This document shows positions 4,901-53,360 of a stretch of DNA of 64,000 bases, piece by piece. The position numbers were made by a program, and so were the translations under genes. Every line of letters begins with the position of its first letter. Within the stretch, counting starts at the first letter, position 1. The notes under the pieces are model-generated. The model was given only the letters and a program-made list of their open reading frames with translations. It searched no databases and was not told the origin of the DNA. The stretch is taken from the NCBI RefSeq assembly GCF_016406105.1, contig NZ_CP066308.1, forward strand, positions 2,205,501 to 2,269,500. Direction: 5' to 3'. The stretch is from Brevibacillus composti (GTDB lineage: Bacteria; Bacillota; Bacilli; Brevibacillales; Brevibacillaceae).

Positions 4901-7117
4901 ATGGGAAAGACATGGATTCGAAGGCGGATCGGATGGCTCTTTCTCACGGGATTCGCGGGGCTGGCCACCGGGTACCTGCTATGGGGGCCGACAGCGGCTC
5001 AGGTGGACGCCCACCAAACGGAGGAAGGGTACAGCCTGAAATTCCGCACCTCTCAAACCGACATGCAAGTGTATGAGGAGGGCGAATGGAGACCCTACTT
5101 TGTAAAAGGGATCAATCTGGGAGCATCGCTTCCCGGGCGCTATCCGGGAGAGCTTCCGATCGCAAAGGAGGATTACCTGCGCTGGTTTGGCATGATGCAT
5201 GAATTGGGGACAAGGGCTGTCCGCATCTACACGATCCATCAGCCTGTCTTCTACGAGGCTCTGGTGGAGTTTAACCGGAAGCATGCAAACGACCCTCTCT
5301 ATCTGATTCAAGGGATCTGGTCGCCGGAAGAAGCGCTCATCGAAAAAAAAGACGCTTTTCTGCCGGAGATTCGCACGGAATTTCGCAATGAGATCGAATA
5401 TGCCGTCGGTGCGGTCTACGGGGACATCACTATACCGGAGAGAAGCGGAAAAGCGAGCGGCACCTATTCCGCAAATGCCGGACCGTATTTGCTGGCATGG
5501 CATATCGGAACCGAATGGGACCCCGAGATGGTAAAGATCACCAACGAGAAGCGGGCGGAGGAACCACGGTATCAGGGTGACCATTTTCAAGCGAGTGCCG
5601 AAGCGTCCGCTTTTGAGTCCTGGCTCGCGGAGATGCTAGATCTGGCCGCAGAGCAGGAAGCGATGCGCGGCTGGCAGCATCCTGTCACGTTTACCAATTG
5701 GGTAACCACCGATCCGTTGGAACACCCCGGTGAACCGATGCTTCACGAGGACATGGTCAGCGTCGATCCGACGCACATCGAGCCGATCCGCTGGGAGGCG
5801 GGATATTTCGCCGCGTATCATGTCTACCCGTATTATCCGGATCTGTTTCGCTATGATGTCAGCTTACAGAACGTTCGCAATCAGAAGGGCGAAGTGGATA
5901 CGTACAAGGCCTATTTGCGAAAACTGCGGGAGCACCACAGCGAGATGCCCGTGATGGTAACCGAATTCGGCGTCCCTTCTTCAGTCGGCGCGGCCCATCG
6001 CGGTCTGTTGGGGCGGGACCAAGGCGGACATGACGAGCGGGAGCAAGGCCAAATCAATGCGGACCTGCTGCGTGAGATCTACGAGGAAGGTTACGCGGGC
6101 GCCATCCTGTTTACCTGGCAGGATGAGTGGTTTAAACGGACATGGAACACCATGCGATTCGAGCTCCCGGAGGAGAATCGGGCCTATTGGAAAAACGAGC
6201 TGACCAATGAATCGTTCTTCGGTCTGCTGGCGATGGATGCCGGTTTGGAAAACATCTTGAGCATCGACGGGGACGTGGAAGATTGGGACAAGCTGAAAGA
6301 CAATGTGAAAAAGCACATGAATGGAACGATGCCGGGAATCCGCGGGATGTGGATGACCCATGACGAGGCGTATGTCTACTTCCTCCTGCGACTGGAGCAG
6401 CCGCTTCGCCCGGAGCGGGAACATGTGGTGATCGGCATAGACACGATACCAGGCGGCAATCGGGAAGCGCAGGAATTGCCCGGCCTTCGCCTCGACGAAG
6501 GTCTGGAGGCCATGATTCGCCTCGGCGACAGCGATGAGAGTGAAGTGAAGATTGCTTCCAACTACGACTTCCACAAGCGTCTGTACGGCAAACGCTATGG
6601 CATGCTTCCTTACCCGGATGAGGAACAGCGGGATAACTCTGGCCTGTTCCTGCCATGGAAGCTGGCCGTCAGCTTGGAGATGAGTCCGCCGGATACCAAA
6701 ACAACACATCCCTTAGAAGAAATGACCGTCGGACAGCTGAGGCGAGGCACCACCGTGCCGGGCAAACAAGGGTACAGCTCGCAGGCAAACTGGGAGACCC
6801 GGGGAGAATGGCTGGAACTGCGCGTGCCTTGGATGCTGCTGGGCTTTACCGATCCAAGCACGAGTCGGGTGATGCGGTATCCGAGCGGAGAAGGCAGTTT
6901 GACATCCACGGAATCGGAGGGCATCCGCGTGCTCGCGATGCTCCAGGAGAAAGCGGAAGGGAGCATAAAAGGAGTGAGGGCAGGACAGATCATCCGGCTG
7001 ACCGAGCTGGATCGCTACTCCTGGCCCGTATGGAGCCTCCCCCGTTTTTCGGAGCGGAAAAAAGAGAGCTTTTCCCTGTATCAGAAAGCCTTGGATTCCA
7101 TACCAACCTATCGGTAA
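4901..7117 (+). CDS. Membrane-anchored glycoside hydrolase-like protein with CBM9/DOMON-like C-terminal domain
   Basis: This 738-residue protein starts with a basic stretch and one hydrophobic segment (residues about 9-27), a signal peptide or anchor, so the bulk is outside the cell. Residues about 60-440 look like a TIM-barrel glycosidase of clan A style: an early WFGMMHELGTRAVRIYT block, a possible acid/base in IGTEWDPE near 205, and a nucleophile-like glutamate in MVTEFGVPSS near 356. From about 455 a second domain begins with SIDGDVEDWDKL, typical of CBM9/DOMON-like sugar-binding modules. It opens a five-gene operon with a GT2 synthase, so it may trim or bind the secreted polymer. The family assignment is inference from motifs. 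Confidence 0.7.
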   Translation: MGKTWIRRRIGWLFLTGFAGLATGYLLWGPTAAQVDAHQTEEGYSLKFRTSQTDMQVYEEGEWRPYFVKGINLGASLPGRYPGELPIAKEDYLRWFGMMHELGTRAVRIYTIHQPVFYEALVEFNRKHANDPLYLIQGIWSPEEALIEKKDAFLPEIRTEFRNEIEYAVGAVYGDITIPERSGKASGTYSANAGPYLLAWHIGTEWDPEMVKITNEKRAEEPRYQGDHFQASAEASAFESWLAEMLDLAAEQEAMRGWQHPVTFTNWVTTDPLEHPGEPMLHEDMVSVDPTHIEPIRWEAGYFAAYHVYPYYPDLFRYDVSLQNVRNQKGEVDTYKAYLRKLREHHSEMPVMVTEFGVPSSVGAAHRGLLGRDQGGHDEREQGQINADLLREIYEEGYAGAILFTWQDEWFKRTWNTMRFELPEENRAYWKNELTNESFFGLLAMDAGLENILSIDGDVEDWDKLKDNVKKHMNGTMPGIRGMWMTHDEAYVYFLLRLEQPLRPEREHVVIGIDTIPGGNREAQELPGLRLDEGLEAMIRLGDSDESEVKIASNYDFHKRLYGKRYGMLPYPDEEQRDNSGLFLPWKLAVSLEMSPPDTKTTHPLEEMTVGQLRRGTTVPGKQGYSSQANWETRGEWLELRVPWMLLGFTDPSTSRVMRYPSGEGSLTSTESEGIRVLAMLQEKAEGSIKGVRAGQIIRLTELDRYSWPVWSLPRFSERKKESFSLYQKALDSIPTYR

Positions 7118-8320: not shown

Positions 8321-9742
8321 ATGAGAGATTTTTTGCTGGGATACGGAATGTTTGCGATGTATTACGTGTTTGTCGTCAATTCCCTCTATCTCATCATCAA
8401 CATCTTTTCCCATGTGAATATTTACACAATTATGAAGCGTTCCCGCTTTTCCCGCTTTCAGTCGCTGGCCGGTTCGACGAGAGTCCCGCCGGTCTCTATC
8501 CTAGTACCCGCCTACAATGAAGAGCTGACCATCATCGAAAACGTCCGTTCGCTCCTCGCCTTGCGTTATCCGCAATTCGAGGTAATTGTCATCAACGACG
8601 GGTCCAGAGACGATACTTTGGGAGTCTTGATCCGAGAATTCGGACTGGTGCGACAGACACACACCTACGTGCGCAATGTCGTGCCAGCCAGTCCAATCAG
8701 CGGCATCTACCACAATCCGCAGTATCCGCAGCTGTTCGTGATCGATAAGGAAAACGGCGGGAAGGCGGATTCGCTGAATGCGGGCATCAACTTTTCGCAC
8801 TATCCGATGATCGCCTCCATCGATGCGGACTCGCTTCTGGAACGCGATGCGCTGATTCGCATGGCCCAGGTGTATATGGAAAATCCGGAGGAAACGATCG
8901 CGATCGGCGGAAATGTCCGCATCGCCAACGGCTGCAAGATCGAGGACGGACTGGTGAAAGAAGTGAATTTGCCGAAAAAGCTGCTGCCCATGTTTCAGAC
9001 CATCGAATACATGAAGGCTTTTCTCGGGGGCCGGATCGGCTGGAGCTCGATCAACGGATTGATTATCGTTTCCGGTGCCTTTGGGCTTTTCCGCAAAGAT
9101 TGCGTGATCGAAGTAGGGGGCTATCGCGAGGGGTACCCCGGTGAAGATATGAACATCATCATCAAGCTGCACAAGTACATGCTGGAAAAGAAACAGAAAT
9201 ACCGGATCGCCTTTTGCCCCGATGCCGTCTGCTGGACCCAGGCACCCGATACGCTGCACATCCTGTCCAGCCAACGGAAGCGCTGGGGGCGGGGAAATTT
9301 GAAGAACATGATCGAGTACCGGCACATGCTGTTTCATCCGAAATACAAGGTGATGGGCATGTTGACGATGCCCTACAACGTCATGTTTGAGACGCTGAAT
9401 CCGTATTTCAAGCTGACCGGCTTTCTCGCCCTGCTCGGCTACAGCTACTACGACATGACCCATGCCCATATCGTGCTGGTATTTATGGCGGTCAACCTGA
9501 TCTACGGCTATCTGCTGACGATCAGCGGTATTTTGCTGGAGGAACTGGCGTTTCGCAGATACACGCGGATGAGTGATCTGGTCAAGCTTCTCGGGTACGG
9601 CTTTCTCATGTTTTTCGGCTACTATCAGTTGGGCGCCATCTGGCGTGTACTCGGACATATCGATTTTCTCCGCAACAATAATACCTGGGGAGTCATGACG
9701 CGCCAGAGCTGGAAGGTCGAAACCAGGCAGCAATCTTCCTAG
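8321..9742 (+). CDS. Processive family 2 glycosyltransferase (polysaccharide synthase)
   Basis: This 473-residue membrane glycosyltransferase resembles the NodC/hyaluronan synthase/BcsA group, which polymerise UDP-sugars and export the chain. There is one N-terminal membrane segment (about 5-28), then the GT-A core: PVSILVPAYNEE, VIVINDGSRDDT, NGGKADSLNAG, the nucleotide-metal SIDADSLL near 166, the base-containing YPGEDMNIIIKLHKY, and the processivity motif QRKRWGRGN near 317. Several further membrane segments follow (about 350-450). RBS GGGAGGTGAGG. No c-di-GMP-binding PilZ domain is present, so control may come from the neighbouring degenerate GGDEF/receiver protein. The polymer is unknown. 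Confidence 0.88.
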   Translation: MRDFLLGYGMFAMYYVFVVNSLYLIINIFSHVNIYTIMKRSRFSRFQSLAGSTRVPPVSILVPAYNEELTIIENVRSLLALRYPQFEVIVINDGSRDDTLGVLIREFGLVRQTHTYVRNVVPASPISGIYHNPQYPQLFVIDKENGGKADSLNAGINFSHYPMIASIDADSLLERDALIRMAQVYMENPEETIAIGGNVRIANGCKIEDGLVKEVNLPKKLLPMFQTIEYMKAFLGGRIGWSSINGLIIVSGAFGLFRKDCVIEVGGYREGYPGEDMNIIIKLHKYMLEKKQKYRIAFCPDAVCWTQAPDTLHILSSQRKRWGRGNLKNMIEYRHMLFHPKYKVMGMLTMPYNVMFETLNPYFKLTGFLALLGYSYYDMTHAHIVLVFMAVNLIYGYLLTISGILLEELAFRRYTRMSDLVKLLGYGFLMFFGYYQLGAIWRVLGHIDFLRNNNTWGVMTRQSWKVETRQQSS

Positions 9743-9766: not shown

Positions 9767-10591
9767 ATGAATCCGGTAGAGAAGTCCATGGCGAAACCGC
9801 CGGGCTTTGTTGAAAAGCTGCGATATCTATTCCGGTACTATGAAGCGAGCAAAATGGCCTGCGGAATGATCGCGATCCGCTGCCGGCATCGCGGAGATCC
9901 CGAGTGGAAGGAATTGCAGGAGTTTCTCGCAAATCAGCGGCCTGAATTGGCGGCGTCATTCTGTTACGAGGAGAATGCAAAACGTCTGGTGATCCTCGCG
10001 GAAGAGTTGACGGTGGCAGAAACACATTACCTGGCGATCGTGATCAAAGAGTATTTGCAAAGAACCGAACAATTGGCGGGAGGCGCCGCGGTGGCCGCCT
10101 ACCCGGAAAGCGGCGATGCCATGGAGGAGATCCTGATGGAGATGACGGAGCGCTTGAACCAAAAGCCCTTTCCACACGCGGGAATCCAAGTCGTGCTCAG
10201 GCCCGAGGAAAAATGGGACCGACCGCCTCGATTGCTCCTGGTAGAAAGCGATCCTGTGATTCAGCAAATCCTCTCCGTCCGTCTAGCCAAAAACGGCTAT
10301 GAAATTTTCCAGGCCCTAGACGGCAAAGAGGGACAGCAAAAAATCCTGCAGGTGCAGCCTGATCTGATCATCACCGAGCTCACCCTGCCTGTGATGAACG
10401 GCTACCAGCTGATCGACTGGGTGCAAAGACAGCACGGGCAGACCGCCGCTTGCAAAATCGTCGTACTGACGGACCGACGCTTGGAGGAGGACATGTCGCA
10501 TTGCTTCCAAAAAGGAGTGGCGGACTTCTTGACCAAACCGTTTTCTCCCGTCGAGCTGGATTGGCGAATCAAACGACTACTCATCTCGTAG
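9767..10591 (+). CDS. Degenerate GGDEF-like domain fused to a pseudo-receiver domain
   Basis: A 274-residue soluble protein. Residues about 150-274 are a response-regulator receiver domain (LLLVESDPVIQQIL, then a conserved LTKPFSPVEL lysine), but the phosphoacceptor aspartate is replaced by glutamate in the ITELTLP block (residue about 204), and the acidic pair is only partly kept. The first 130 residues resemble a GGDEF domain in overall pattern, ending GGAAVAAYPESGD, but the GGDEF signature itself is missing (YEENAKR at that place). Only the arginine of an RxxD inhibitory site may remain. I infer a non-catalytic regulator of the adjacent synthase. The GGDEF relation is tentative; the receiver assignment is firm. 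Confidence 0.75.
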   Translation: MNPVEKSMAKPPGFVEKLRYLFRYYEASKMACGMIAIRCRHRGDPEWKELQEFLANQRPELAASFCYEENAKRLVILAEELTVAETHYLAIVIKEYLQRTEQLAGGAAVAAYPESGDAMEEILMEMTERLNQKPFPHAGIQVVLRPEEKWDRPPRLLLVESDPVIQQILSVRLAKNGYEIFQALDGKEGQQKILQVQPDLIITELTLPVMNGYQLIDWVQRQHGQTAACKIVVLTDRRLEEDMSHCFQKGVADFLTKPFSPVELDWRIKRLLIS

Positions 10592-10618: not shown

Positions 10619-11977
10619 ATGGACCGATATACAGCGCTTAAACAAAAAATCGAGGCAAAGACAGCCAGGATAGGCGTCATTGGACTGGGGTATGTGGGAC
10701 TTCCTTTGGCCGTGGAGATAGCGCAAAGCGGCTTTACCGTGTTCGGCGTGGACCTGGACATCGGCAAAATCGAAACATTGCAGCGTGGGGAATCGTACAT
10801 ACGAGATGTGCCAAGCGAGTCCGTGGAACAGCTGGTGCGGGAAGGGAAGTTGATTCCAACGACAGACTACCGCGTCCTGAAGGAACTGGATGCCATCAGC
10901 ATCTGCGTGCCCACTCCGCTGAGCGAGAATCAGGACCCGGATACGTCGTACATATCCCGTGTAGTCGACCAGATCAAGCATTACATTCAAAATGGTCCGC
11001 TCATCACCCTTGAGAGCACCACATATCCAGGCACCACAGAAGAGTTGATTCAGCGGGAGCTAGAGCGGATGGGGTATCAAGCGGGAAGCGACTTCTTCCT
11101 CTGCTTTTCGCCCGAGCGGGTCGATCCGGGGAATCATCGATTTTCCACGACCAATACGCCCAAGGTGATTGGCGGCACGACAGCGAAATGTCTGGAGCTG
11201 GGCGTCCAGCTGTACAGCCACTTTATCCGCCAGATCGTCCCGGTCTCTTCCACGAAGGTGGCGGAGATGTCGAAGCTGCTGGAAAATACGTTCCGCAGCA
11301 TCAATATCGCGTTTATCAATGAAATGGCGCTGATGTGCGAACGAATGGACATCGATGTGTGGGAAGTGATCAAGGCTTCTTCCACCAAGCCGTTCGGATT
11401 CATGCCGTTTTATCCCGGTCCTGGCATCGGCGGACATTGCATACCGCTGGACCCGATGTACCTGTCCTGGAAGGCCAAGGGATACCGGTTTTTCAGTAAG
11501 TTCATTGATCTGGCCCAGTCGATTAACAACAGCATGCCAGACTACGTGGTCTACAAGACATCCGTGATTCTGAACATGTACGCCAAATCCATCCGCAACT
11601 CACGGGTCCTTCTGCTGGGGATGGCTTACAAGCCGGATATTGATGATTTGCGGGAATCGCCTTCGCTGCAAGTGTATGAATTGTTTAAAGAGGCAGGAGC
11701 GCTGGTCGATTACTATGACCCGTACGCCCAATCCTTTATCGATCAGAGCGGCAAGGAAGTCCACAGCGTCTCCTATGACGCAAAAGCATGGCGAAATTAT
11801 GATTGCATGATCCTTTTGACAAATCACAAGGTGTTTCCGTACCGCGCATGGGCCGAATTGGGCGTAGCCATTCTCGATACGCGCAACGCATTTGACGGAA
11901 TCCAAGTCCCGCATCTGTATAAATTGGGGAATTCCGTCAAAAACGCGAAAATTACAGAAGCATCGCTCGCGATCTAA
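10619..11977 (+). CDS. Nucleotide-sugar 6-dehydrogenase (UDP-GlcNAc/UDP-ManNAc type)
   Basis: This 452-residue NAD-dependent enzyme oxidises the C6 of a UDP-hexose or UDP-N-acetylhexosamine to a uronic acid in two steps. Motifs: Rossmann loop IGLGYVGLPLAVE (residues about 20-32), CVPTPLSENQDPD, CFSPERVDPGN, and the catalytic cysteine in GPGIGGHCIPLDP near 273. The SPERVDPGN and GGHCIPLDP forms are those of WbpA/TviB/WecC rather than the UDP-glucose dehydrogenases. As the last gene of the exopolysaccharide operon it should supply a uronic acid precursor to the GT2 synthase. Substrate choice between GlcNAc and ManNAc is not decided here. Confidence 0.88.
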   Translation: MDRYTALKQKIEAKTARIGVIGLGYVGLPLAVEIAQSGFTVFGVDLDIGKIETLQRGESYIRDVPSESVEQLVREGKLIPTTDYRVLKELDAISICVPTPLSENQDPDTSYISRVVDQIKHYIQNGPLITLESTTYPGTTEELIQRELERMGYQAGSDFFLCFSPERVDPGNHRFSTTNTPKVIGGTTAKCLELGVQLYSHFIRQIVPVSSTKVAEMSKLLENTFRSINIAFINEMALMCERMDIDVWEVIKASSTKPFGFMPFYPGPGIGGHCIPLDPMYLSWKAKGYRFFSKFIDLAQSINNSMPDYVVYKTSVILNMYAKSIRNSRVLLLGMAYKPDIDDLRESPSLQVYELFKEAGALVDYYDPYAQSFIDQSGKEVHSVSYDAKAWRNYDCMILLTNHKVFPYRAWAELGVAILDTRNAFDGIQVPHLYKLGNSVKNAKITEASLAI

Positions 11978-13151: not shown

Positions 13152-13228
13152 GGAGCTGTGGTGAAGTTGGAGTTCACGCCGGTCTGTCACACCGGAGGTC
13201 GCGGGTTCGAGTCCCGTCAGCTCCGCCA
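13152..13228 (+). tRNA. tRNA-Asp(GTC)
   Basis: A 77-base cloverleaf. Acceptor GGAGCTG pairs with CAGCTCC; the anticodon stem CCGGT/ACCGG carries loop CTGTCAC with anticodon GTC; the T arm contains GGTTCGAGTCC. CCA is encoded. Confidence 0.95.
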
Positions 13229-13282
13229 GTATTTCAATGAAGTGCGGCTCTCTCACCCGTACCGGGTTCAGAAGATCAACAT

Positions 13283-13358
13283 GCCGGTGTAGCTCAATTG
13301 GTAGAGCACCTGACTTGTAATCAGGGGGTTGTGGGTTCAAGTCCTATCGCCGGCACCA
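13283..13358 (+). tRNA. tRNA-Thr(TGT)
   Basis: A 76-base cloverleaf. Acceptor GCCGGTG pairs with CGCCGGC; the anticodon stem CCTGA/TCAGG carries loop CTTGTAA with anticodon TGT; the T arm contains GGTTCAAGTCC. CCA is encoded. Confidence 0.95.
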
Positions 13359-13377
13359 CGATAGGTTTCACGATTTT

Positions 13378-13461
13378 GCGGTCGTGGCGGAATTGGCAGA
13401 CGCGCTAGATTCAGGTTCTAGTGGTGGCAACACCGTGGAGGTTCAAGTCCTCTCGACCGCA
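13378..13461 (+). tRNA. tRNA-Leu(CAG)
   Basis: An 84-base class II tRNA with a long variable arm (TGGTGGCAACACCG). Acceptor GCGGTCG pairs with CGACCGC; anticodon stem CTAGA/TCTAG with loop TTCAGGT gives anticodon CAG. Unlike the two upstream tRNAs, CCA is not encoded (the next bases are TCG), so it depends on the CCA-adding enzyme. Confidence 0.95.
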
Positions 13462-51472: not shown

Positions 51473-52165
51473 TTATTTCACCAATTTATGGCGGAGAGCG
51501 AGAGCGACGGCCTGTGTTCGGTCTTCTACACCCATTTTCTGTAAAATCCGGTGCACATGGGTTTTTACCGTTCCTTCGGAGATGAACAGATTCTGTGCGA
51601 TCTGGTCGTTCCGGAAGCCAAAGGCCAATTGCTGGAGCACGTCCAGCTCGCGCTCCGTCAGCTCTTCCAACAGCACATGGCGCTGCCCGCCTGGAGCCGG
51701 CTCATCCGCACGCTGGTTTTTCAACAACTCCGCTAAGGCTTTTGCCGCCGTGCCCGTATGGTAGAGTACAGCACCGTCATAGGCATTGCGGATCAGCTCC
51801 AGCATCTCCTGCGAGTCGGCATCTTTCAGCATGTAGCCCACTGCGCCTGCCCTGATGCCGTCCACCACGTAGTTCTGGATGTCAAATGTGGTCAGAATGA
51901 GCACCTTGATGTGGGGAAATTGTTTTAAAATTTCACGCGTCGCTTCAATGCCGGTGCATTTCGGCATCTGTACATCCATCATGATCACATCGGGCCGGCA
52001 TTTGGCCGCGGCGGCGATCGCTTCCAGTCCGTCCGCCGCCTCGCCCACGACCTCCATATCCGGCTGCATCTGGATAACGTAGCCGAGGCCTTGGCGGATC
52101 ATCGTCTGATCATCTACGAGCAGCACCCTGATTTTTTTCGTCTTTTGCTTATCTTCCGTCACCAT
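51473..52165 (-). CDS. NarL-family response regulator
   Basis: A 230-residue regulator. The receiver domain shows VLLVDDQTMIRQGL, the phosphoacceptor aspartate in DVIMMDVQMPKCTG near residue 65, and LTTFD plus GYMLKDA. The C-terminal LuxR-type HTH contains LTERELDVLQQLAFGFRNDQIAQ. ATG at 52165 follows GGAGGGGG. The gene overlaps the end of the histidine kinase gene by 17 bases, so both are co-translated. Targets are unknown. Confidence 0.92.
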   Translation of the reverse strand: MVTEDKQKTKKIRVLLVDDQTMIRQGLGYVIQMQPDMEVVGEAADGLEAIAAAAKCRPDVIMMDVQMPKCTGIEATREILKQFPHIKVLILTTFDIQNYVVDGIRAGAVGYMLKDADSQEMLELIRNAYDGAVLYHTGTAAKALAELLKNQRADEPAPGGQRHVLLEELTERELDVLQQLAFGFRNDQIAQNLFISEGTVKTHVHRILQKMGVEDRTQAVALALRHKLVK

Positions 52166-53360
52166 GATTATCCCCCTCCGGGCAATCGCCAGCATACGGG
52201 ATTGCCACACGTATCTCAAAGCCATGCGGATCCCGTGCCGCGAACGAAATGCTGCCCTTTTGCTCCTGCACGCGCTCCTTCATGCTGGACAGTCCGAAGC
52301 CGGGTGTAATGACATTTTGCGGTGTAAGAGCGCCATCATCGCGGATTGTCAGATAAAAATGAGAATCGCTGCGGGAGACGACGACTTCCAGCTGGGTGGC
52401 ATCCGCATGCCGCAATGTATTGGTAACCGCTTCCTGGAGGATCCGGTAGAAAGAGATCGAGATGGATTGCGTGAGAACCAGCTCGGGATCATCCGCCACC
52501 AACTCGCAGCGCAGTCCGGTATTTTTTTCGGTTTGGGAGAGAAAGGCACGCAGTGGAGCCAACCCCAGAGAAGACTGGTCGGTTGCCAGCGTATGGACCG
52601 AACCGCGAATATCATCCAGGCTCTGTTTGGCGACAACCAGCATGTTTTTCACAGCCTGCTGCGCATCTTGCGGCCCGTTTTCGAGCATGAATTTCAAGGC
52701 ATGCAGCTGCACAATCAAAGAGGTGAGGGAATGTCCCAGCTGATCGTGAAGGTCGCGGGCGATTCTCGTACGCTCCTCCAAAACGGCGACCTGCATCGTA
52801 TGCACAGCGGCTTCCTGCAGTTCATCATGCGCTTCTTTTAACTGCGCCAGTGTATTTTGCAGCTGTTCCAGGTGAAGGCGGGTTTGGGCATTGGCTTCGT
52901 ACTGCACGCGATATCCTTTCGCTCCGATAAAACAACCGACGTAGGTCAGCACGAACGGCACCAGATGAGAGATGGTGTTTTCCGAGTCCATCAGCAGCAC
53001 GGCAAGGCTGAACACTCCCATCCCGATGGCATAGACCAGCGCACGTCGATTGACCATTCGGGCTCCGATAAAAATCGCCAGCGGAAACATCAGACCCAGA
53101 CTTTCCGATCCGCCTACATATCCCTTCAGCAGCGTCACCAGCCCGAGCAGGATCGTGACAATTTCGACACGGGCGGGATTCCACCAGTGCTTGGGCGACC
53201 AGAAAAGCCAAAAATGGCAGAAAATAATCAGAAGTGAAAAAGCAAATTGAAAAGAGGTCTCGGTGATGTACGAATTGGGGATCAGGATCAGCACCATGAT
53301 TGCCAGATACCAGATGGTAAAAAACCGTTCTTTGAGAACCTCCCACACTCGTCTGAACAA
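52149..53360 (-). CDS. Sensor histidine kinase (HisKA_3/NarX-DegS class)
   Basis: A 403-residue membrane kinase. The N-terminal 160 residues hold about five to six membrane helices with little outside the bilayer. A coiled-coil stretch follows, then the dimerisation block LEERTRIARDLHDQLGHSL with the phosphorylated histidine near 205, and an HATPase with YRILQEAVTNTLRHADA (N box) and GFGLSSMKERV. TTG start behind AAAGGAG. It is the partner of the adjacent NarL-type regulator. The intramembrane sensor suggests an envelope or antibiotic stress signal, but that is inference. Confidence 0.9.
   Translation of the reverse strand: MFRRVWEVLKERFFTIWYLAIMVLILIPNSYITETSFQFAFSLLIIFCHFWLFWSPKHWWNPARVEIVTILLGLVTLLKGYVGGSESLGLMFPLAIFIGARMVNRRALVYAIGMGVFSLAVLLMDSENTISHLVPFVLTYVGCFIGAKGYRVQYEANAQTRLHLEQLQNTLAQLKEAHDELQEAAVHTMQVAVLEERTRIARDLHDQLGHSLTSLIVQLHALKFMLENGPQDAQQAVKNMLVVAKQSLDDIRGSVHTLATDQSSLGLAPLRAFLSQTEKNTGLRCELVADDPELVLTQSISISFYRILQEAVTNTLRHADATQLEVVVSRSDSHFYLTIRDDGALTPQNVITPGFGLSSMKERVQEQKGSISFAARDPHGFEIRVAIPYAGDCPEGDNHGDGR

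Follow-up and report, generated by a model that had tools for sequence, protein, structure and literature searches.

A regulator with degenerate GGDEF and receiver domains adjoins an exopolysaccharide synthase in Brevibacillus and Paenibacillus

Introduction

Two described proteins come closest to the regulator analysed here: YdaK, encoded in the ydaJKLMN operon of B. subtilis, and PssE, encoded in the pssA-E operon of Listeria. Both are degenerate GGDEF proteins of exopolysaccharide (EPS) operons that also contain a glycosyltransferase, and both are essential for polymer production in their operons (PMC7064775, PMC4125290). They keep the I-site and bind c-di-GMP. In YdaK, binding requires the I-site Arg, and the R202A substitution abolishes it (PMC7064775). 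YdaK has four transmembrane helices, and neither YdaK nor PssE has been described with a receiver domain.

Receiver domains can also lose their chemistry. Asp-less pseudo-receivers have the receiver fold with the phosphoacceptor replaced, most commonly by Glu (PMC4395418, PMC12632262). According to a 2025 review, a Glu-induced active shape has been suggested for some pseudo-receivers and doubted for others, and the switching of bacterial pseudo-receivers is a mystery (PMC12632262). A GGDEF domain and a pseudo-receiver occur in a single chain in PleD of Caulobacter (REC - pseudo-REC - GGDEF), which is an active, phosphorylation-controlled cyclase.

Here, we describe a regulator encoded in a 64,000-nucleotide stretch of the Brevibacillus composti genome (hereafter, the window). 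Like YdaK and PssE, it has a degenerate GGDEF domain and lies beside a glycosyltransferase; unlike them, it has lost the I-site and has a fused pseudo-receiver. Its domain order is the opposite of that in PleD, and it differs from Asp-less pseudo-receivers at large in having a pseudo-GGDEF domain fused ahead of the pseudo-receiver and in its link to a synthase operon.

Results

Five genes lie in a row on the same strand with intergenic gaps of 16 to 29 bases, as calculated from their coordinates, and the regulator gene is the fourth (Table 1). In order, they encode an exported protein, a HEAT-repeat protein, a GT2 synthase, the regulator and a UDP-sugar dehydrogenase. The boundaries of this operon were drawn from gene spacing alone, because scans for promoters and terminators around it returned no more matches than scans of shuffled sequences. 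A Pfam search found no PilZ match in the synthase, and an Rfam scan of the window, in which three tRNAs were the only matches, retrieved no c-di-GMP riboswitch. The host genome carries 10 GGDEF genes and four PilZ genes. The exported protein gave no Pfam match above the cut-off and no PDB sequence match, looked hydrolase-like by eye only, and is present at nearly every locus of the regulator family. Elsewhere, the window holds a cluster of three tRNA genes and a further ORF with a receiver domain.

Table 1. Features of the operon, the regulator and the remainder of the window
Feature	Position in window	Strand	Basis
Exported protein of unclassified type, conserved	4901..7117	+	Synteny; 738 aa
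HEAT-repeat protein, N-terminal hydrophobic segment	7147..8304	+	Pfam HEAT_2, 63 bits; segment by eye
GT2 polysaccharide synthase, PgaC/IcaA-like	8321..9742	+	Best match PgaC/IcaA, below equivalog cut-off
Pseudo-GGDEF/pseudo-receiver regulator gene	9767..10591	+	ORF, 274 aa
N-terminal degenerate GGDEF domain, about residues 14-142	9806..10192	+	AlphaFold model, structural alignment, hhalign
Position of c-di-GMP I-site RxxD, here PELA, residues 59-62	9941..9952	+	Profile alignment
Position of GGDEF signature, here NAKRL, residues 70-74	9974..9988	+	Profile alignment
His87, invariant in the window regulator family	10025..10027	+	Homologue alignment
C-terminal pseudo-receiver domain, residues 155-273	10229..10585	+	Pfam PF00072, model
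Acid-pair region E160 S161 D162 (canonical D D then D/E)	10244..10252	+	Homologue alignment
Phosphoacceptor position, Glu204 (motif ITELTLP)	10376..10378	+	ORF translation, homologue alignment
Conserved switch Lys257 (motif LTKPFSP)	10535..10537	+	Invariant in 70/70 homologues
UDP-sugar dehydrogenase	10619..11977	+	Best match UDP-N-acetylhexosamine type, below equivalog cut-off
Three-tRNA gene cluster	13152..13461	+	
Further receiver-domain ORF	51476..52279	-	57 bits

Pfam detected no GGDEF match above the cut-off in the N-terminal domain, and neither single-sequence hmmsearch nor a two-sequence profile retrieved a link to GGDEF domains; a PDB sequence search with the N-domain profile also gave no match. 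At the sequence level, the link was seen only when a deeper pair of profiles was aligned with hhalign (probability 80-84%), the partner profile comprising 34 true GGDEF domains from the same bacterial family. The AlphaFold model of the domain, computed from 22 family sequences, has a pLDDT of 91.3, and its best structural match scored VIA Z 12.3 over 121 of 129 residues at 2.6 A. Every one of the 50 best PDB entries listed is a GGDEF or diguanylate-cyclase chain (Z 12.3 to 10.0), and these entries cover 112 to 125 of the 129 residues at 5 to 18% identity; Foldseek alone gave a borderline result (best E 1.4e-3). In this model, the domain has the GGDEF fold, with the b-a-b-b-a-b-a-b topology of diguanylate cyclases. 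A first-pass annotation had described it as GGDEF-like around AVAAYPESGD without a GGDEF loop. The predicted fold and the hhalign register, which places AVAAYPESGD on the conserved SIGIAlYPkDG stretch, agree with that description.

In the same register, NAKRL occupies the place of the GGDEF signature, PELA that of the I-site RxxD, and an 11-residue deletion spans the FKxINDxxGH region. Therefore, catalysis, the substrate site and the primary inhibitory site are all gone. No GGDEF-like motif occurs in any of the 70 homologues aligned, and the protein does not qualify as a diguanylate cyclase. The residues that are invariant in the N-domain across the family alignment are His87 and Gly33.

A degenerate GGDEF domain could still bind c-di-GMP and thereby activate the synthase, and the first-pass annotation had pointed to receptors such as YdaK. 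The predicted fold, the GGDEF and PilZ genes of the genome, the precedent of YdaK and PssE as receptors in EPS operons (PMC7064775, PMC4125290) and the RxxD motif kept by most decayed relatives in sister operons (see below) are consistent with this reading. However, Arg is absent from the I-site column in 70/70 homologues, and it is the equivalent Arg that YdaK needs for binding (PMC7064775); the substrate side has also been removed by the FKxINDxxGH deletion. For the window protein, we consider a YdaK- or PssE-like c-di-GMP receptor improbable, and this part of the annotation did not hold up.

The C-terminal domain is matched by the Pfam profile PF00072 (Response_reg) over residues 157-267, with an E of 5e-20 and 72.2 bits against a cut-off of 30.2. 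In CheY numbering, positions 12, 13, 14, 57, 87, 106 and 109 correspond to E160, S161, D162, E204, T235, F254 and K257, so that the pocket reads E12 S13 D14, E57, T87, F106 and K109. The replacement of the phosphoacceptor Asp by Glu and the retention of the Lys, both reported in the annotation, were confirmed in the ORF, and the altered acid pair (E160, S161) is an additional loss. With E160 and S161 at the acid pair and E204 as the acceptor, only T235 and K257 are kept of what a phosphorylatable receiver needs. The domain is an Asp-less pseudo-receiver, that is, a receiver fold with E204 in place of Asp, and, to judge from its sequence, it is no longer phosphorylatable in the usual way.

This condition extends to the whole family, as a complete phosphorylation pocket was found in 0/70 homologues. 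Position 12 is Asp in 32 of them, Glu in 10, Asn in 27 and Ser in 1, and position 13 is acidic in only four. All 70 have Thr or Ser at position 87 and Lys at position 109, and 68 have an aromatic residue at position 106. Together with NAKRL and PELA in the N-domain, the incomplete pocket bears out the earlier proposal that both signalling domains lack their chemistry. Conservation is greater in the receiver than in the N-domain (mean column entropy 1.43 vs 2.33 bits), with peaks at b3, b4, b5 and the KPFS loop.

Among the homologues (Brevibacillus, Paenibacillus, Cohnella), 44 have Glu at position 57 and 26 have Asp. Glu57 is fixed in the clade of the window protein, where it is not a private mutation, and is present in all sampled Paenibacillus and Cohnella homologues; one whole Brevibacillus clade has Asp57. 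All 26 Asp57 homologues have Asn or Ser at position 12 and have, thus, lost the metal-site acid. The idea that Glu57 strictly complements an acid at position 12 was considered and rejected: the match is perfect in Brevibacillaceae and is broken by the proteins of loci L086 and L113, which combine Asn12 with Glu57. Since a tree built without columns 12 and 57 requires only two changes for each trait, this pairing amounts to one or two events, and we make no statistical claim for it.

These distributions bear on two further readings of the receiver. In the first, Glu204 mimics phospho-Asp through T235 and K257, and the synthase is permanently switched on. The Glu of the 44 homologues and the invariant Thr/Ser and Lys favour this mechanism, as does the nature of Glu itself, which takes the place of Asp more often than any other residue in Asp-less receivers and is known to mimic the phosphorylated state in part (PMC12632262); by analogy, Glu204 may keep the domain in a conformation resembling the active one. 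However, in some pseudo-receivers the idea that Glu drives activity has been refuted (PMC12632262), an independent clade of short regulators described below has Asn at the phosphoacceptor, and 26 of the 70 relatives, encoded in the same operon, combine Asp with Asn or Ser at the metal site. Because the Asp clade, with Asn at its metal site, sits in the same operon, Glu is not required for the role of the family, and we regard a permanently activated receiver as an unlikely explanation. The second is a conventional response regulator that is still phosphorylatable. The Asp clade keeps the acceptor Asp, Thr and Lys, but it has Asn or Ser and a non-acid in place of the two metal-site acids, and the acceptor itself is lost in the Glu clade. 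Moreover, searching the flanks of 54 family loci for receiver and GGDEF domains revealed no other gene with either of them. This makes conventional phosphorylation very improbable indeed.

Full-length homologues of the regulator were retrieved from 30 of the 39 genomes of the bacterial family. The dN/dS ratio ranges from 0.06 to 0.17 over six pairs; dS is saturated in all three comparisons of the window protein, L009 and L010 with one another. Together with the 44 Glu-bearing homologues, this spread and these ratios speak against a chance origin of the observed losses. As far as these substitution patterns indicate, the folds and the receiver switch residues T235, F254 and K257 are under strong selection. 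The regulator adjoins the synthase at all 59 loci whose synthase is at least 61% identical to that of the window, a count based on 399 genomes of the class with loci matched by hand, and which includes L206 and L207, missed by the profile search yet carrying the regulator. Brevibacillus, Paenibacillus and Cohnella share the same gene order, apart from small rearrangements of the genes for the exported protein and the dehydrogenase. The linkage spans two bacterial families and is also found in paralogous operon copies. This strongly suggests an obligate link between the regulator and the neighbouring synthase, and the genomic context supports the annotation's proposal that the protein is an allosteric subunit of that enzyme. 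Among the loci, L050-L053 (also L086, L087 and L088) are diverged operon copies, the genomes of L050-L053 each containing another copy too. At L053 and L086, the gene for the exported protein lies several kilobases away from its usual place.

Across Bacilli, synthase homologues with roughly 37-45% identity adjoin larger regulators of HPt-REC-GGDEF-REC architecture, where the HPt label refers to an HSxKGT motif plus a sub-threshold Pfam match. In these sister operons, the regulator gene comes first, followed by the HEAT, synthase and exported-protein genes. Often they also encode a stand-alone receiver, together with a large protein, presumably a hybrid kinase, that ends in a receiver domain. 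The window protein shares with the sister regulators the GGDEF-REC order, a related C-terminal receiver, and homologous synthase and HEAT neighbours. A literature search retrieved no paper describing HPt-REC-GGDEF-REC or REC-GGDEF-REC proteins by name, or the operon by its parts.

Many full-length sister regulators combine an intact GGEEF with canonical receivers. Thirteen of the sister regulators have kept the GGDEF motif (L200, L204, L205, L210, L245, L247, L250, L254, L255, L257, L260, L261 and L263), all of them with a canonical C-terminal receiver, and Pfam GGDEF matches were obtained in L201, L205 and L208. Others, for example L211, L213, L252 and L275, combine a decayed GGDEF motif with a canonical receiver. 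In L201 and L208, the HPt, N-terminal receiver and GGDEF domains are decayed and the C-terminal receiver contains Glu. Another group of short regulators (about 280-310 residues; L267, L270-L274, L277 and L278) has Asn at position 57 and a decayed GGDEF-like domain that keeps RxxD; these proteins are predicted c-di-GMP receptors. In these operons, RxxD is kept in 19 of the 21 decayed GGDEF relatives alignable by profile, and it is lost in the window family. Still more degraded regulators of 248 aa, with Thr at the phosphoacceptor and Leu replacing the switch Lys, occur at loci of a similar type (L202:10181-10924 and L258:9478-10221). A long insert separates the decayed GGDEF domain from the C-terminal receiver in L212:9665-11896, L259:9541-11775 and L282:3538-5934.

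In the receiver phylogeny, the window family joined the C-terminal receivers of these proteins, not the N-terminal or stand-alone ones, on a branch that is only moderately supported (87/78; 81/72 with pocket columns masked). A single origin of the Glu shared by the window family and L201/L208 received 99/85 with all columns and 52/61 with pocket columns masked; in the synthase tree, L201 and L208 are not placed beside the window family. The synthase tree also positions the short Asn57 forms inside the long-regulator group, apart from the window family. Because these short forms nest among long regulators, the protein was probably shortened, and its phosphoacceptor lost, on two or more occasions. 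The similarity in sequence and the receiver tree suggest that the window protein corresponds to the C-terminal half (GGDEF-REC) of the HPt-REC-GGDEF-REC regulators, and that it is the form that has decayed furthest. We infer that decay proceeded from an active long form to a dead short form.

Discussion

We consider it fairly probable that the regulator is a non-enzymatic subunit of the adjacent GT2 exopolysaccharide synthase, with a regulatory or assembly role exerted through contact. Its persistence in the same place across two families, despite its lost chemistry, suggests that it works by touching the synthase. With neither input chemistry left and the gene bound to a single synthase, contact is the simplest mechanism. 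The extra receiver genes often found in sister operons, compared with none in the flanks of the 54 family loci, also count in favour of a contact subunit. Against it stands the position of the gene, which follows the synthase here and precedes the HEAT gene in the sister operons. The moderate support for the branch that joins the family to the C-terminal receivers, and the placement of L201 and L208 in the synthase tree, weigh against it too. Alternatively, the N-domain, in which His87 is invariant, could have gained a new ligand site, which would make the protein a sensor and not a passive subunit.

In the Brevibacillus/Paenibacillus lineage, the protein lacks the HPt domain and first receiver and has lost the GGDEF catalytic motif and the I-site. 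In the contact mechanism, the remaining pair of pseudo-GGDEF and pseudo-receiver domains would dock onto the synthase from its cytoplasmic side, or onto the HEAT protein, and the bound regulator would keep the complex together or in its active state. We infer both this physical contact and the sign of its effect from sequence comparisons. Output would then depend on how much of the protein is present, on the partners it binds or on some other ligand, and not on phosphate or c-di-GMP.

The sister operons allow a tentative evolutionary scenario, which we put forward with some doubt. An HPt-REC-GGDEF-REC cyclase would have given rise, by stepwise loss, to decayed forms that keep the I-site and then to a form devoid of phosphotransfer, cyclase activity and c-di-GMP site. 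The short form would have at least two origins, one with Glu and another with Asn, always keeping its tie to the synthase, and the retained role would be structural contact. In the active ancestors as well, such contact may have been the essential role.

Beyond the first-pass annotation, the analysis adds the decay series and the conserved synthase system that surrounds the regulator. The degenerate GGDEF proteins best known from EPS operons have kept c-di-GMP binding; here, a single type of regulator beside a single type of synthase grades naturally from active to completely dead. Swapping natural members of this series could separate the contributions of phosphate, cyclase activity, c-di-GMP binding and contact. 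The series also draws attention to an apparently undescribed exopolysaccharide system, synthase-dependent and widespread among Bacilli.
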